From Gemmatimonadota bacterium (lineage in GTDB: Bacteria; Gemmatimonadota; Gemmatimonadetes; Longimicrobiales; Gaopeijiaceae), in assembly GCA_040882465.1 (NCBI GenBank), contig JBBEBG010000039.1:1-57247 (forward strand): a DNA stretch of 57,247 nt, given 5' to 3'. This document shows positions 22,205 to 51,415 of the stretch, piece after piece. The translations under genes were made by a program, and so were the position numbers. Under the pieces are notes generated by a model. The model did no database searches and was not told the origin of the DNA. It saw only the letters and a program-made list of their open reading frames with translations. Position 1 is the first letter of the stretch. Every line of letters begins with the position of its first letter.

Positions 22205-23458
22205 ATGCGATTCTTGCACCTCGCGGACGTCCATCTCGATACCGCCTTCGCCAGCCGTTCGCGTGAGATCGCCGCGGAGCTGAGAAAGGCTTCGCGCGCG
22301 GCGTTCGAGGGTGCGGTCGAAACCGCGGTCCGGGAGCGGGTGGACGCCCTTCTGATCGCGGGGGATCTCTTCGACGGGGAACGGCTCACCGTCGAGACGG
22401 AACATTTTCTCCATGAGACGCTGAGTCGTCTCCGCACGTCCGGGATCCAGGTTGTTTACGCGACGGGGAATCATGACCCGGGCGGCGCCGCCGGCCCGGC
22501 GTCCCTGGTTCGGTGGCCCGATAATGTCAGCCTGATCCAGGGACCCGAGCCGGTCACCGTCGAGATCCTACGCGAGGGAGAGCCGGTCGGGCTCGTAACC
22601 GGGGTGGGCCACGCTTCAGCGCATGTCACCGATGACCTGTCGCGGCGTTTTCCCCTCCCTCACCGGGGTCCCCCGCACGTCGCCCTGCTCCACACCCAGG
22701 TGAGGGGTTCCGCAGGGGGGGAAGGACACGAACCGTACGCCCCCTCCGATCTCGCCCACCTGAGCACCGCGGGATACGACTACTGGGCCTTGGGGCACGT
22801 ACACCTTCGTCAGACGCTCTCCGACGACCCCCCGACTCACTATCCGGGAAATCCGCAGGGCCGAAACCCCCGGGAAACGGGCGCGAAGGGTGCTCTCCTC
22901 GTGGACCTTTCCCGCAAAGAGTCGCCGCGTGTGGACTTCATCGAGCTCGGCCCCGTGCGTTGGGAGACGCTCCGCGTGAAGGACTTCGAGGGGGAAGGAC
23001 ACGTGCCCGCCCTCGCGCGGCGGCTGGAGCGGGAGTGGCGCGCGGCGCGCCAGAACGACGCCGGGCGCCCGGGGACACGCTGGATCGCCCGCATCGAGCT
23101 CGAGGGTCCATCCCCGCTCCACCGCCAGCTCGCGACCGGAGAGACGCTCGCAGAACTCAGAGACGCCCTCGTGTCCACCGTCGGACTCCTCGACGCGGAA
23201 GTTCGTTCGAGTGGCGTCCGGTCGCTCGAGCGCGTCGAAGATTACGTGCGGCGGGACGACGTGCTCGGTGAGACGCTCCGTCTCGTGCGCGACCTGGCGT
23301 CGTCGTCGGGCGCGTCCCCCGCCGAGGCTCTGGGACTCTCCAGGGACCTGTTGGCGACACAGGTGGACGCGCTCCAGCTCGACGACTACCTCCGCGAGCT
23401 CCTCGCCTCCGGGGACGCCCTACTTCTCGACGCCCTCCTGCGCTCCGCGGACCGGTGA
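22205..23458 (+). CDS. DNA repair exonuclease, SbcD/Mre11-family (YhaO-like)
   Basis: 417 residues. All five calcineurin-type phosphoesterase motifs are intact: DVHLD (Asp8, His10), AGDLFD, TGNHDPG, LLHTQV and GHVHL. It should therefore bind two metal ions and act as a DNA nuclease. The C-terminal 150 residues form a helical partner-binding region. The start MRFLHLAD is chosen because the motif begins there. It overlaps the next gene as GTGA. The pair matches the YhaO-YhaN arrangement and is the active counterpart to the degenerate fusion at 47434-49719. Confidence 0.9.
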   Translation: MRFLHLADVHLDTAFASRSREIAAELRKASRAAFEGAVETAVRERVDALLIAGDLFDGERLTVETEHFLHETLSRLRTSGIQVVYATGNHDPGGAAGPASLVRWPDNVSLIQGPEPVTVEILREGEPVGLVTGVGHASAHVTDDLSRRFPLPHRGPPHVALLHTQVRGSAGGEGHEPYAPSDLAHLSTAGYDYWALGHVHLRQTLSDDPPTHYPGNPQGRNPRETGAKGALLVDLSRKESPRVDFIELGPVRWETLRVKDFEGEGHVPALARRLEREWRAARQNDAGRPGTRWIARIELEGPSPLHRQLATGETLAELRDALVSTVGLLDAEVRSSGVRSLERVEDYVRRDDVLGETLRLVRDLASSSGASPAEALGLSRDLLATQVDALQLDDYLRELLASGDALLLDALLRSADR

Positions 23459-25824
23459 GATTCGTACGCGTCGCGGTCACTCGGTTCGGACCGCTCTCGG
23501 AGTTCGAGCCCGGTGCCGGGTCGCCCCTTCCCGGCCTCGTGATCGTCCTCGGGCCAAACGAAGCGGGGAAGTCGACCTTTCATCGGGTCCTCACTTCGCT
23601 GATCCATGGGATCTATCCCGCAACGCGCGATCAGAATCCCTTCACGCCGTGGAAGGGCGGCGACATCGAGATCGGGGGGACGATCGCCCTCGACAGCGGC
23701 GAAGAGTGGGAGGTTCAGCGCCGGCTTCTGAGCACGCCGAGAGGGCACCTGGTCCGCGGCGGGGCCACCGATCCGCTCGACAATCGCAGCCTCCCCTGCG
23801 CCAGTCATGTGAGCTCGGCGATCTATTCGCAGGTGTACGCGATCGGGCTCGCCGATCTGGCCGGAGTCGAGCGCGAGCCCTGGGACGCCGTGCGGGACCA
23901 CCTCATCGTCGGAATGGGGAGCGACGACTTGCGCGCGCCCCGCGAGGTCGCGGAGGAGCTGAACGCGCGGGCAGCGAGTCTCTGGCGGCCGACGAGAAAG
24001 GGGAATTCGCGTCACCGGGAGCTCGAAGCCGAGATGAAGGAGCTTCGGAGTCGGCGCGACGACGCCCTGAAGCGCGACCGACGCCAGCGAGAGGCGCTCG
24101 GTCGGGCTCTCGCACTCGATCGAACCCTCGACGAGCTGCGCAGGGAGAAGGTCGCGGCGGCAGCCCGTGTCGAGCGACTCCGGACGCTCGTCCCCCTCCG
24201 GGTGCGGCTGGAGCGCTTGGACCGGATGGAAGCGCCGCTCGGTCCGATCGAGGGGCTCCGGGAGCTCCCGCGAGACCCCGCGGCTCGGCTCCGGGAGCTC
24301 CACGATCGGGCGGAAGCGGAGAGGCGCCGCGCGGAAGAGCGCGAGGCCATGGACGGCCGGCTGCGGGAGGCCGGGCAGCCGCTCTTCGACGCACTTCCCG
24401 CGGACGACGAAGAACTGGCCACCTTCGGACAGCGAGTGGCAGCGGTCCCTCTCACGCTCCTCGACGAAAGGATCGCGGGGCTCGAGGATGAAACGGGGCG
24501 GATACGCGCTCTCGAGGAGCGACTCGAGGAGCTTTCGGGCCGGGCCCCGCAGCCGCCGGAAGCGATCCCGAAGATCGGCTTCCTCCTCGGCGCCCTGGCG
24601 CTCGGCATCCTGACGGCCGCGCTCGCCCTCCGAGACCCAATTTTCGGAATCGCGGGAGGGGTTTTCCTGATCGTTTCGACCGCACTCATCGCACGCGCGC
24701 TCGAACTGAGGGCTCGGCGGGTCGGGCTCCGCGAAGCGCACGAAGCCGAAGTGCGCAATCTCCAGAGCCGCCTCCCGAGCGCCCAGCGCGCGCGCGATGA
24801 ACGGGAGAAAGGAGTTCGCGAGCTACTCGAGCCGCTCTCCCTGAGCACGTCGGCACGGGAGCTCCAGGGACGTCGGCTCGTCTCCGATCTCGAGCGGCTC
24901 GCGGGACTTTTCCGAGAGCGCTCGGAGCGGGGTCGCCCCAGGGAAGTGCGGGCCGAGGCGGAGCTCCAGGCCTTCCTGGCGGCGCTCCGGCGGGCCGGCG
25001 GAAGCGCCGATGCCGACGGGGCGGAACGGGTCGCCGCGCGGATCATCGAGATGGAAAAGGTGGACCGGGCGCGCGAAGAGCTGGAGGGAGACGCCGGCGA
25101 GATCGAGGTATTGCGCGACAAGATCCAGGAGGCCGAGCGCGACGGAGAGGTGTGGGTCGAGGTCCCGGAACGGCTCGCCGGGGCGGAAGCCGAGGTCGAA
25201 GAAATCGATTCGCGGATGCAGCGGGCACGTGACGAGCAGACGGCCTTTCGCCGGGATGCCGCGCACGACGCGAAGGACGAGACAGTGGATCTCGTGGACA
25301 GCCACATCGAAGAGGTCCGCGAGCAGATGCGTACCGCCGAACGGGAGCGGGATCGCCTCTTCGTCCTGGCACGGCTTCTCGAGAGGGCCGAAGCGACCTT
25401 CCGCGAAACCCACCAGCCGGAGCTCCTCCGCCGTGCCGAGCGCCACCTCGCACGGATCACGGGAGGGCGGTACGCGCGCATTCTCACGGGAAGAGGAGAC
25501 GATCCGAACGCTCTCCACCTGCACGCGAATCACCTTCCCCACCCGACGCCGGTGGAGTCCCCCCTCTCGACCGGAACGCGCGAACAGGTCTACCTCGCGC
25601 TTCGCCTCGCCATCGTGGACCATCTGGACGAAGGGAAGGAGACCCTCCCCCTCCTTCTCGACGAGATCTTGGTGAACTGGGATCCCGAGAGGCGCCAGCG
25701 CGTCCTGGATCTGCTCGTCGAGCTCTCTCGGAGCCGCCAGATCTTCCTCTTCACCTGCCATCCCCACCTCGCGGGGGAGGTCGCGCGCGCGGGGGGCCGC
25801 GTGATCGAGCTCCCGGCCCCGTGA
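23455..25824 (+). CDS. Rad50/SbcC-like AAA ATPase (YhaN-like) with a central membrane-type segment
   Basis: 789 residues, GTG start. Walker A GPNEAGKST lies at 33-41; long coiled coils occupy about 170-370 and 420-650; the C-terminal lobe has LSTGTREQVYLALRLAI (signature) and LPLLLDEILVNWD (Walker B and D-loop). Two hydrophobic stretches at about 375-420 (IGFLLGALALGILTAAL and IFGIAGGVFLIVSTALI) interrupt the coil where SbcC has its zinc hook, and no CxxC is present. YhaN family members share such a hydrophobic hinge. It should couple ATP hydrolysis to the upstream nuclease. Confidence 0.88.
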   Translation: MRFVRVAVTRFGPLSEFEPGAGSPLPGLVIVLGPNEAGKSTFHRVLTSLIHGIYPATRDQNPFTPWKGGDIEIGGTIALDSGEEWEVQRRLLSTPRGHLVRGGATDPLDNRSLPCASHVSSAIYSQVYAIGLADLAGVEREPWDAVRDHLIVGMGSDDLRAPREVAEELNARAASLWRPTRKGNSRHRELEAEMKELRSRRDDALKRDRRQREALGRALALDRTLDELRREKVAAAARVERLRTLVPLRVRLERLDRMEAPLGPIEGLRELPRDPAARLRELHDRAEAERRRAEEREAMDGRLREAGQPLFDALPADDEELATFGQRVAAVPLTLLDERIAGLEDETGRIRALEERLEELSGRAPQPPEAIPKIGFLLGALALGILTAALALRDPIFGIAGGVFLIVSTALIARALELRARRVGLREAHEAEVRNLQSRLPSAQRARDEREKGVRELLEPLSLSTSARELQGRRLVSDLERLAGLFRERSERGRPREVRAEAELQAFLAALRRAGGSADADGAERVAARIIEMEKVDRAREELEGDAGEIEVLRDKIQEAERDGEVWVEVPERLAGAEAEVEEIDSRMQRARDEQTAFRRDAAHDAKDETVDLVDSHIEEVREQMRTAERERDRLFVLARLLERAEATFRETHQPELLRRAERHLARITGGRYARILTGRGDDPNALHLHANHLPHPTPVESPLSTGTREQVYLALRLAIVDHLDEGKETLPLLLDEILVNWDPERRQRVLDLLVELSRSRQIFLFTCHPHLAGEVARAGGRVIELPAP

Positions 25825-47433: not shown

Positions 47434-49719
47434 TCATCCCTCCTCGGGGATCGAAAGTCCAGGGGAACCCGAAGGAATCCGGCGCACGATCCAGCGCCCC
47501 CGCCCGTCCAGGGTGAGCTCGAGGACCCGCGCCATGCGCTCGGGGAGATTCTCCGCCACGGAGGGCGGCGCGACGACGAGGGCGAGGGCCCCTTCGGGGA
47601 CGCGCTCCGCAACGACTTCAATCGCGGCCGAAGCCAACGGTTCGCCCCCATGCCCGCCGAGCTCGGTCAGGAGCAGGGGGCCCGGCTCACCCGCGCTCCC
47701 CTCCCCAGACTCCCACGCAGAGAAGCGGATCGCGAAACGAAGGGCCGTGAGATCCGTCCCTTCCGGCACCTCTTCCCGCCCCCCCGCGCCCACGGCCAGG
47801 AGGCGCCCCTCTCGCACCCGCACCCCCGAGATCCGTCCCTCCGTCATGGAGGAAAGGAGGTTCGCGGTCCTGCGCAGAACGGCGCGTGCTCCGGGGAGCG
47901 CCTCCAGTGCAGGTCCGCCGGTCGTTCCAGCTGCGCCGGGCCTCTCAAAGCCCTCGCGGGGCGGCGACTCTCGACCGGCGGCGTGGTGCTCGCGGGCGCG
48001 CTGGACCCGCTCGGCTTCTTCTTCGACGCGCGCGTGGAGTCGGAGCGAGTTCTCCTCCATCGCCTGAAGCTCCTTCGGCTTCTCGTCGAGCTGCGCACGC
48101 CTCTTCTTCCACCACTTCCCGTCCTGAATGACCGCTTCCATCTCGTCGGAAAGGGTGGCCATAAGCCGTCCCGCTTCCGATCCGAGCGGCCGTCCGCAGG
48201 TGGGGCAGCGGCTCTCCTCACCCCGGGCTTCGAGAAGGCGGATGCGATTCTTCAGCTCACGCGCCCGGTCGCGGTAGTCGAGGAGTTTGGTATCGGCTTC
48301 CTGGCGGTCGCGCGCCCACTCGAGCGTTCGGGCCTCCAGGTCCCCGGTCGCCTCGATGGAATCCGCACGCAGCTCCGTGAGAGCGTTCGCCATGGCGGCG
48401 ACGCCCGCCTCCGGCGGCTCCGCGAGGCCATCTCCCGGCAACGCGGCTCCAATTTGTGGCGGCGCCGGCGCCCGGTGGACCAGGATCGCGCGCAGGAGCT
48501 CCGCCGGATCGCCATCGGGGAGTGTGGGGAACGGGATGGTCCCGTCCCCGACCCGAAGGACTTCCAACGCAGGGAGTGGCGGGTAGCCCCCGTCCGCCGA
48601 TTCGTCCGGCCCGCGCAGCGCCCGGACGATCCGCGTCCGGTCCGCCTCCGTCGGGGCGGTGAGGAGGACGACTCCGAATCCGAGGGGAACCTCGGTCGGC
48701 ACTCCCTCCTCGGAAACGCCGAAGCGGAGGGCGAATGTCTCGGAGCCCCGGGGAGAACGCCGCGTCGCAGCCGGAGCGCTCTCTCCGAGAAGGTGGAACT
48801 CCGCGAAGGCCGCCCTCCCTCGGATCGCGGAGAGAAGCCCCTCCGAGACGCCGTCCCCGGGGGCGAGGACATCCCCCCGGAGGCGGATCCGGACGATCCT
48901 TCCTTCCGTGCCCCCCGGGATTCCCTCGAGGAGCTCGCGAAGCCTTCGTGTGCCGGTATCCGGATCGGAGGAGGAAACGCGGACCGGCGCGAGGTCCACG
49001 ACGGGGCGCCCGGGAACCGGGTGAAACTCCGTCGTCCCGCCCTCCAGGTCGAAGCTGAGGAAGCCACGCTCCTCGGTCGCCTGGTGCCAGGGGTTCCGCC
49101 CGGGACGCTCGAGCGCCCCGGCCGACCAGGCGTTTGGGGCCCAACGCATGGCTTCGTGGGGTCCGCCGACGGCGATGTAGCTCCACTCCGCGGGTCTTAC
49201 GGGCAACGCCGAAGGAGCGTCGGTCACCCGGCCCCGAATGACGAGAATGTTCCAGCGGGCGCCGGGGTCCGGACGAAGCGCGGGAAAGGGTGGGTCCAGA
49301 ATCGCCCGTTGAGGAACGAGCAACACATGGATCCCCGCCTCGCGGAAGCGCACCGCTCTCGGCGCACCCGCCGCCGCCTCGACGCCGGGAAGGCCGTCCA
49401 GGACCGCGAGGGGTCCCGGATCGGCCGGATTCCGCGGGGTGTCGCGTTCGCCCGCGATCGCGAGGAGCTGGGTCGCGGGCAGGTGAGAGCGAAGGATGCC
49501 GAGCCCTCGCTGAAGGGCGAGGTACGCGGTGTTCGGGGGATCTGGGCGATCGAAGAGATCGCCGGAGAGGAGGACCAGGTCGGGCGCCAGGCGGACGATC
49601 TCCTGAACCGCCCAGCGGAAGGCCCCGGCCAGATCCCGCTCCCGAAGATTCCACCCCCTCTCGGCGCGGGGGAAGGCCCGGAAGCCGAGATGGAGGTCGG
49701 AGAGGTGGACGAGGCGCAC
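47434..49719 (-). CDS. Mre11/SbcD-like plus Rad50-like single-chain fusion with degenerate active sites and a CxxC zinc hook
   Basis: 761 residues. Residues 1-240 follow the Mre11/SbcD plan: SDLHLG (Asp8, His10) and SGDLFDR (Asp54) are intact. GNHD is GERD (90-93), the motif IV His is Arg162 (VIRGRV), and GHxH reads GGPH (185-188). Residues 340-370 resemble the first Rad50 strand, but the P-loop is TAPTEADR (no GKS/T). Coiled coils at about 440-500 and 515-590 flank CPTC (505-508), the Rad50 hook motif. The C-terminal lobe has GTDLTALRFAIRF (655-666, like the YhaN signature), LLLTE in place of LLLDE (682-686), and a final strand. It looks like a structural DNA-end protein rather than an active enzyme. 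Neighbours are metabolic. Confidence 0.75.
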   Translation of the reverse strand: MRLVHLSDLHLGFRAFPRAERGWNLRERDLAGAFRWAVQEIVRLAPDLVLLSGDLFDRPDPPNTAYLALQRGLGILRSHLPATQLLAIAGERDTPRNPADPGPLAVLDGLPGVEAAAGAPRAVRFREAGIHVLLVPQRAILDPPFPALRPDPGARWNILVIRGRVTDAPSALPVRPAEWSYIAVGGPHEAMRWAPNAWSAGALERPGRNPWHQATEERGFLSFDLEGGTTEFHPVPGRPVVDLAPVRVSSSDPDTGTRRLRELLEGIPGGTEGRIVRIRLRGDVLAPGDGVSEGLLSAIRGRAAFAEFHLLGESAPAATRRSPRGSETFALRFGVSEEGVPTEVPLGFGVVLLTAPTEADRTRIVRALRGPDESADGGYPPLPALEVLRVGDGTIPFPTLPDGDPAELLRAILVHRAPAPPQIGAALPGDGLAEPPEAGVAAMANALTELRADSIEATGDLEARTLEWARDRQEADTKLLDYRDRARELKNRIRLLEARGEESRCPTCGRPLGSEAGRLMATLSDEMEAVIQDGKWWKKRRAQLDEKPKELQAMEENSLRLHARVEEEAERVQRAREHHAAGRESPPREGFERPGAAGTTGGPALEALPGARAVLRRTANLLSSMTEGRISGVRVREGRLLAVGAGGREEVPEGTDLTALRFAIRFSAWESGEGSAGEPGPLLLTELGGHGGEPLASAAIEVVAERVPEGALALVVAPPSVAENLPERMARVLELTLDGRGRWIVRRIPSGSPGLSIPEEG

Positions 49720-49758
49720 CGTCCTCCTAAAGGCCTTCGGGACGCGCCGCGGGGGCGG

Positions 49759-50241
49759 TCACGGTTCGAAGGTTCCGTACTCTCCCCGAAAGAAGAGAAG
49801 GGGCGAACCGGTCTCGTCGGCCCCGAAGGCAAGAACTTCGCCGATCAGGATCGTGTGATCCCCCGCGTCCACGGGCTTCCAGAGCGCGCACTCCAACCAG
49901 GCGAGGGGGTCGGGGAGGAAAGGGACACCGCCGAGGGAACGGCGCAACTCGAGCTCTCTGAAGCGCTCCCCGGGCACCTCCGCGGAGAAACGGCGAGCGA
50001 GGGCCTCCTGCTGCCCCCGGAGGACCGAGATTCCGAACCGGCGCGTCTCGAGAATCGCCGCGAGAGAGGCGGATCCCCGGTCGAGGCAGACCAGAACGAG
50101 TGGCGGTCGCAGGGAAACCGAGGCCATCGAATTGGCCGTGAGGCCCACCGGAGCTCCGGCGGCGCCCGCCCCCGTGACGACCGTGACTCCCGTGGTGAAG
50201 TGCCCCAGCACGCTTCGGAACGAATCGCTTGGGTCGGCCAT
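49759..50241 (-). CDS. flavin reductase-like FMN-binding protein
   Basis: 160 residues. VLGHFTTGVTVVTG, GLTANSMASVSLRPPLVLVCL and GDHTILIGEVLAF are the strands of the flavin reductase domain that bind FMN. It supplies reduced flavin to a monooxygenase or acts alone; no monooxygenase gene is adjacent. It lies 39 bases upstream of the fusion-nuclease gene on the same strand, so the two may be co-transcribed. Confidence 0.9.
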   Translation of the reverse strand: MADPSDSFRSVLGHFTTGVTVVTGAGAAGAPVGLTANSMASVSLRPPLVLVCLDRGSASLAAILETRRFGISVLRGQQEALARRFSAEVPGERFRELELRRSLGGVPFLPDPLAWLECALWKPVDAGDHTILIGEVLAFGADETGSPLLFFRGEYGTFEP

Positions 50242-50371
50242 CCCCCTCCTTCCGATGGACCGGCGGACCTTTGCGCTCCACTTTCCGCTCGGGTAACTTC
50301 ATGACTCGGGCCTTTCCCGCTCCCGACCAGTGTTCGGAAGTCGCTCGCGGCCGCCCCACCCCGGAAACACC

Positions 50372-51415
50372 ATGCACGCCAAGGGATTTCCCTCCTTCCT
50401 CGTGCCCGTGATGATAATCGCGAGCTCCGGGTGCGACAACGTGGAGTTCGGGGGGTTCCAACTGGAGCTCCAGGCGCCGGCTCCGGCGCAGGGCATGCCC
50501 ACCCAAATCGTTCTGCCGGACTCCCTTCCCACTCCTCTCGCCCCGATCCAGACCGGTCCGGTCCTCTACCTGGTGGAGCGGGGCGAAGGGTCCGAAGCAT
50601 CGCTCGTCGCCGTCGCCTCCTTCACAGACGAAGGGTACGAGCCCCTCCCCGACTCCGAGGAAGTGCCGGAGATGGTGGAGCGGTTCGCGATCGGCCGCTT
50701 CGAGCGTGCGACCGAATTCGTCCTTCTCTCCCGGGGCGCCCGCGCGGGGACCTTCATCGCGGACGGCTTCGCGGCAGCGGACGAGTCGACCTGCCGCCTT
50801 CGCCCCAGCGCGAGCGGGAGGGTCGAGATCCGCCCCGAGGCTTCGGGGGAACGCCGCTTCCTGGCGGTTGCGAAGGACGACCTTTTTGCGGTCGGGCTAG
50901 AATCGGCCGCCGAATCCGCGCCCCTCCCCGCCTCGCCCGGTATGGCGGCGCTCGATCCCGGATCCGTCACCGCCGCGCAGATCGCGATCCCGGCCATGAA
51001 CGTCCCTTGGCCCGCCTCCATTCCGGGCGCCCGCCGGGACCTCCAACCACTCGTATTCGACGGCGGCGCGACGCAGGGGCTCGCAGCTTCCTTCGTTTAC
51101 GGCGGCGAGATGGACATCGGCCCCGAAGTCCCGGTCGCTTATGGCCTCTTCATCGCCTCGGCCCCCGTGGGCACGCGTTACGAACCCATCGTGGCCTGGT
51201 ACCAGCGAGTCGGGCAGGACGGAAAGGCGTTCGCCCGGCTGCTCGGGGCGCACGATCTGCAAGGGGCCGGCGCCCCGGACCTCCTCCTCGAGGTCTTCGG
51301 CGAAGAAGCGCGGTGGCTCGCCCTACTGGGAACGCGCGAAGGCGAGTGGTCCATGCTCTACCAGGATCCCTGCGGCGTGCCGGCCGCTCGGGGAGGGATC
51401 CGGACCTTCCGCTGA
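50372..51415 (+). CDS. predicted lipoprotein next to the BtuFCD-type importer, unknown function
   Basis: 347 residues. Signal peptide with lipobox (IIASSGC, Cys near 21). The body is beta-rich without a recognised domain; two or three further cysteines could form disulfides. Its stop overlaps the start of the binding-protein gene (TGATG), so it is translationally linked to the ABC importer and may be an accessory lipoprotein of it. Confidence 0.68.
   Translation: MHAKGFPSFLVPVMIIASSGCDNVEFGGFQLELQAPAPAQGMPTQIVLPDSLPTPLAPIQTGPVLYLVERGEGSEASLVAVASFTDEGYEPLPDSEEVPEMVERFAIGRFERATEFVLLSRGARAGTFIADGFAAADESTCRLRPSASGRVEIRPEASGERRFLAVAKDDLFAVGLESAAESAPLPASPGMAALDPGSVTAAQIAIPAMNVPWPASIPGARRDLQPLVFDGGATQGLAASFVYGGEMDIGPEVPVAYGLFIASAPVGTRYEPIVAWYQRVGQDGKAFARLLGAHDLQGAGAPDLLLEVFGEEARWLALLGTREGEWSMLYQDPCGVPAARGGIRTFR

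Follow-up and report, generated by a model that had tools for sequence, protein, structure and literature searches.

Mre11 and Rad50 form the universal enzyme pair of DNA-break repair. The window analysed here is a stretch of 57,247 nucleotides from the 3.5 Mb genome of a Gemmatimonadota bacterium, and on its reverse strand it carries a gene for a 761-residue protein (47434–49719) in which an Mre11-like and a Rad50-like part, both devoid of their catalytic motifs, are fused into one chain, as the single open reading frame and its homologues indicate. Translation starts at a GTG codon at position 49719, preceded by a perfect Shine–Dalgarno sequence, AGGAGG (49723–49728, reverse strand). Upstream of the fused gene, 39 bases away and in the same orientation, lies a flavin reductase gene (49759–50241, reverse strand) that is possibly co-transcribed with it; other genera also have this reductase gene near the locus, in some cases separated from it by a membrane-protein gene. 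Nearby, a conserved lipoprotein-like gene without a Pfam family (50330–51415, forward strand) runs divergently from the locus and has relatives that recur across families. An earlier note on this DNA had described a single-chain pseudo-Mre11–Rad50 with a kept zinc hook. The homologue survey, the profile–profile comparisons, the AlphaFold models and the selection analysis all agree with that description, and every motif that the note had named (GERD, Arg162, GGPH, TAPTEADR, LLLTE and CPTC) is present where it had placed it. All features of the gene given below lie on the reverse strand.

The Mre11/SbcD phosphoesterase core and its capping domain occupy residues 1–314 (48778–49719), as delimited by hhalign and by an AlphaFold2 model with pLDDT mostly above 85 in this part. 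Metallophos (PF00149) matches the window protein above the Pfam cut-off, and residues 1–297 align with the intact orthologues at E=2e-74 in profile–profile comparison (hhalign). The NCBIfam models for canonical SbcCD score below their cut-offs (32.6 bits against 77.65 for sbcd, TIGR00619; 40.5 against 500 for Mre11_Sulfo), which says little on its own because the intact relatives likewise stay below the curated cut-off of sbcc, TIGR00618. Within this fold the catalytic residues are gone. Asp57 (49549–49551) aligns with the catalytic His52 of P. furiosus Mre11, GERD (residues 90–93; 49441–49452) replaces GNHD and thereby puts Arg92 at the position of the proton donor His85, and Arg162 (49234–49236) replaces the motif IV histidine (P. 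furiosus H173). GGPH (residues 185–188; 49156–49167) stands in place of GHxH, with the metal-1 ligand His188 retained and the metal-2 histidine lost. Both catalytic histidines and the equivalents of N84, H173 and H206 are lost, and the metal-1 ligands D8, H10, D54 and H188 are all kept. The second histidine loss (H52 to Asp57) and the four surviving metal-1 ligands go beyond what the earlier note had reported.

These replacements are shared widely among the relatives. The position of P. furiosus His85 is arginine in 47 of the 48 pseudo sequences and serine in the remaining one, against histidine in 29/29 sequences of the intact outgroup; the His52 position is aspartate in 94% of the pseudo clade and histidine in 100% of the intact sequences. 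The two fixed switches, H57D and H92R in the numbering of the window protein, suggest a putative D57–R92 salt bridge, and L034, L073 and L074 depart from this pairing. Asp8, His10, Asp49 and His208 (P. furiosus numbering), which we take to bind metal 1 in the calcineurin-like superfamily, are complete in 46/48 pseudo sequences, and the set Asn84, His173 and His206, presumably the metal-2 ligands of that superfamily, is complete in none of the 48 against 24 of 29 intact sequences. The surviving metal-1 site could mark a different chemistry, with the protein acting as a mono-metal hydrolase or binding another ligand, and its near-complete conservation, the fixed arginine at the His85 position and the fact that the pseudo-Mre11 is the most constrained part of the protein are what such a reading would lead one to expect. 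However, it is improbable given the loss of N84, H173 and H206, which are metal ligands, and of both catalytic histidines, one of which, His85, makes contact with the phosphate and is required for the known Mre11 chemistry (PMC4996933).

The Rad50-like half has diverged beyond the reach of Pfam. No match to the AAA_23, SMC_N or SbcC Walker-B models was obtained in the window protein or in any of 20 fused relatives, and Rad50_zn_hook is sub-threshold in the window protein, whereas a related intact locus is recognised cleanly, its two genes matching the Mre11 and Rad50 models, those for the P-loop and Walker B among them. Profile–profile comparison (hhalign) with the intact orthologues recovers the hook region at E=7e-35 and the C-lobe at E=4e-11 (probability 97%), in the same domain order as in the intact pairs. 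The C-lobe match bears out the Rad50 origin that had been proposed for the C-terminal half. The N-lobe match is weak and statistically modest (E of about 0.0015), with an aligned block that is the P-loop itself; its score of 23.0 compares with a best of 15.0 among 150 column shuffles. The relic N-lobe (residues 329–370; 48610–48735; AlphaFold2 and hhalign) consists of three strands and a helix, with TAPTEADR (residues 354–361; 48637–48660) at the place expected for the P-loop GPNGAGKS. In the relic C-lobe (residues 611–749; 47473–47889; hhalign and the head model) the signature motif and Walker B have disappeared, and LLLTE (residues 682–686; 47662–47676) replaces the Walker B sequence LLLDE. 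Neither the window protein nor the pseudo clade retains the P-loop, signature and Walker B that characterize Rad50/SbcC. P-loop and Walker B are absent from the expected place in all 48 pseudo sequences, scattered SGGE or VLDEPT pattern matches in this clade fall outside it, and those of the 29 outgroup sequences in which a Rad50 was read keep the P-loop.

Between the two lobes runs a shortened antiparallel coiled coil (residues 438–582; 47974–48408; hhalign and AlphaFold2), predicted as helices 438–502, 513–545 and 549–582, with the zinc hook CPTC at residues 505–508 (48196–48207). A CxxC hook, a putative zinc site, is present in 47/47 members of the pseudo clade that have a Rad50 part. In one subclade (L041, L049, L050 and L092-L096) the hook is altered to CGSC, CGRC, CSAC, CSVC, CSGC or CRSC, and a separate SbcC-like gene was present as well in the three genomes checked there (G022, G025 and G026). 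Zinc affinity is uncertain in this subclade because hooks such as CGSC, CSAC or CSGC take the place of CPxC. The arms around the hook have become short and variable in the family: the P-loop-to-hook and hook-to-signature distances are 375 and 299 residues in 10 of 10 intact pairs measured, and the corresponding arms of the window protein are 151 and 147 residues long. Weak PADLOC matches to Lamassu LmuB (best 8.8e-5) were confined to the coiled coil and hook, and this assignment was rejected.

AlphaFold2 modelled the full chain as a monomer with a pLDDT of 84. Residues 1–314 of the model match Mre11 including its cap (VIA Z 26.9 to MjMre11, rmsd 3.0 over 281 residues). Full-length searches were dominated by Mre11 matches, and the head, that is, the rest after residue 314, was folded and searched alone; this model reached a pLDDT of 80.5, and both of its lobes match P. 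furiosus Rad50 (4ncj; VIA Z 12.9, rmsd 3.9 over 222 residues). The predicted head has the bipartite ABC fold with a coiled-coil insertion, but SMC heads score almost equally, so that the model identifies an ABC/SMC-type head and the assignment to Rad50 rests on sequence. Collectively, the predictions describe a complete Mre11 fold joined to a Rad50-like head.

Homologues were found, at a loose cut-off, in 106 of the 121 genomes of the Gemmatimonadota family to which the window belongs, a family of soil and sediment bacteria. Among these hits, the seven from genus g12 and the one from g26 (G081) are only weak; without them, about 31 of 40 genera carry the gene. Many of the family members are single chains of about 700–930 residues, and others consist of two adjacent open reading frames of about 315–450 and 440–530 residues; the single chain is not essential, because several genera carry the two-frame form. 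Forms with intact motifs are confined to other families of the same order and to further orders of the class, where they are gene pairs encoding about 400 and 815 residues that carry GNHD (or near variants), GHxH, GPNG(A/S)GK(S/T), SGGE and mostly LLxLDEVF. These intact SbcDC-type pairs (for example L054, L056 and L058) share with the fused gene the Mre11 core, the domain order, the hook-proximal sequence CPTCGRPL...VVQDGKWW and the chromosomal slot, but they differ in being two genes with active motifs and long arms. The slot is marked by trpE, DUF2723-like, hydantoinase, lipoprotein-like and flavin reductase genes in varying subsets, and these shared flanking genes make it most likely that the change took place at the original locus and not by transfer.

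In a tree built with the motif columns removed, the dead forms fall into one clade with support 100/100, apart from all intact forms. A fused dead form from a genome whose label places it in a different family of the class (L098, G228) is nested inside this clade, which suggests either a transfer or a classification issue. One locus, L057, branches between the dead and intact clades and combines, in the same slot, a nuclease-dead Mre11 with GDRD and a complete Rad50 ATPase. It may be a half-way intermediate, or it may reflect an independent, parallel loss with fast evolution. Its standing as a true intermediate is uncertain because its genome, G053, belongs to an intact-pair family; that genome has a second, intact SbcCD-type pair elsewhere (L115).

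Fusions of Mre11 and Rad50 have been known since 2011, from Mimivirus (R555), plasmids of Deferribacter and C. kluyveri, and some eukaryotes (PMC3175470). Like these, the window protein has an N-terminal Mre11 and a C-terminal Rad50 part in one chain. In Mimivirus R555 the ATPase motifs are retained along with most of the nuclease residues; one P-loop NTPase segment went unseen in the fusions from Anaerostipes and a Bacillus phage (PMC3175470). The described fusions are sporadic and thought to have spread laterally, whereas the present form has descended vertically, in place, with both activities lost family-wide. Their existence allows for the acquisition from outside of a mobile fusion like those of Mimivirus or the plasmids, but such an origin is highly improbable here: the gene occupies the chromosomal slot of the resident intact pair, the closest relatives found were intact pairs from within the phylum, no phage match was obtained and the plasmid SbcD-type matches were only weak. 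The earlier note's statement that no family of this design had been described therefore does not hold for the fusion as such. It does hold for the doubly inactivated, in-place form, since no family-wide doubly dead Mre11–Rad50 was found in the open-access papers searched; what is new is a conserved pseudo-complex that remained in place and has a traceable active ancestor.

The gene is under purifying selection. Whole-gene dN/dS is 0.15–0.20 in pairs of 86–96% identity and 0.07–0.09 in more distant pairs, for which dS is saturated. By region, the Mre11 part gives 0.06–0.13 in pseudo pairs against 0.13 in one intact pair, and the hook 0.03–0.26 (0.10–0.26 in the low-divergence pairs) against 0.19 in one intact pair. 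The ATPase lobes give 0.14–0.43 in low-divergence pseudo pairs against about 0.04 for intact Rad50, again in one pair. The Mre11 part and the hook are constrained as in the intact pair, and the ATPase-derived lobes show an approximately five-fold relaxation; the loosening of constraint coincides with the loss of catalysis, and constraint persists elsewhere. The loss of every catalytic motif and the splitting of several relatives into two open reading frames could also be expected of a pseudogene in decay or of an error in sequencing, and the earlier note had named recent decay or sequence error as the outcome that would undo its reading. However, the frame is open and the sequence conserved in about 31 genera, dN/dS lies at 0.07–0.20, the new residues are fixed, synteny is conserved and the gene is present in single-contig genomes. 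Neither dN/dS near 1 nor frequent stops appeared in the fused groups tested. Decay and artefact are consequently very unlikely, and we regard it as highly probable that the locus encodes a conserved, catalytically dead derivative of Mre11–Rad50.

The active Mre11–Rad50-like enzyme of the window is encoded by YhaO and YhaN (22205–25824), whose motifs are intact; these are also an Mre11-like and a Rad50-like protein, but they are separate genes and, in the lack of a CxxC in YhaN, have no zinc hook. YhaN occurs in 29 of 40 family genera and is nearly absent from the intact-pair families. Loss of the active pair roughly goes together with having YhaON, and this complex could have assumed the enzymatic work. 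Canonical-type SbcC was found only in G008, G011, G022, G025 and G026 among the surveyed family genomes. In many genomes of the family, the window's included, YhaON and the dead gene share a contig and lie about 20–60 kb apart (for example in G000, G009, G015, G018, G023, G025 and G129); this proximity is probably inherited synteny and possibly a functional neighbourhood. A link to end joining was also considered and dropped: Ku was not found in the window's genome, is patchy across the family and shows no clear association.

The earlier note had proposed that the protein might modulate the active complex. A rival reading developed here is that it is a regulatory or architectural subunit of YhaON, in which the pseudo-Mre11 would form a mixed dimer with YhaO and the protein would supply a hook to YhaN, which has none. 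Besides the proximity on one contig, co-occurrence by genus fits such a role (27 genera with both genes, 4 and 3 with one only and 6 with neither; Fisher p=0.003 with genera counted as independent, kinship ignored). However, this co-occurrence is inherited, the dead gene is present where YhaN and SbcC are both undetected (G005, G019, G029 and G031), and YhaN occurs without it in G007, G016 and G032. The four genomes with neither partner show that the protein is not simply a YhaON subunit; modulation is thus possible but not obligatory, and we consider the subunit explanation unlikely.

Instead, the pseudo-Mre11–Rad50 probably survives as a structural clamp and not as an enzyme, because its shape and its zinc clasp are still protected by evolution. 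The gene descends, most likely in place, from an ordinary SbcDC-type gene pair of the kind still intact at this position in sister families. The family lineage lost both catalytic histidines together with the ligands of the second metal, as well as the P-loop, the signature and Walker B; it also cut the coiled-coil arms by about half and, in many genera, joined the two genes into one chain. The Mre11 fold may have become a module that binds DNA or a protein and probably holds one structural metal at site 1, DNA binding being suggested by the fold. In Rad50 the hook acts as a module for constitutive dimerisation (PMC6969161), and in the present protein it would join two chains constitutively into a compact, ATP-independent dimer, with the hook at one end and the pseudo-Mre11 and relic heads at the other. 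Such a dimer would work as a tether, clamp or scaffold rather than as a nucleotide-gated nuclease, and a hook-dimerised scaffold or tether is the mode of action to which we give slightly better than even chances.

A precedent exists for the structural use of a dead nuclease of this fold. The B-subunits of eukaryotic DNA polymerases are inactivated Mre11-like structural subunits derived from archaeal DP1 (PMC4996933, PMC2669801). They likewise keep a dead phosphoesterase domain for its structure, but with another partner and with neither a Rad50 part nor a hook, and the window protein is not a member of that group. How the work of Mre11–Rad50 is divided between tethering and cutting is a long-standing question that is usually tackled with point mutants. 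Here, evolution has carried out that separation in about 31 genera; intact relatives occupy the same slot, and L057 is a possible half-way form. What remains necessary once catalysis is gone can be read from the retained Mre11 fold, metal-1 site and hook, and the modest size of the protein suits it to structural and tethering assays. We propose tentatively, as something a little short of an even bet, that a whole family has swapped active Mre11–Rad50 for a doubly inactivated, ATP-free, hook-dimerised clamp, a counterpart of the dead polymerase subunits. If true, this would show that the tethering role of Mre11–Rad50 is selectable on its own.
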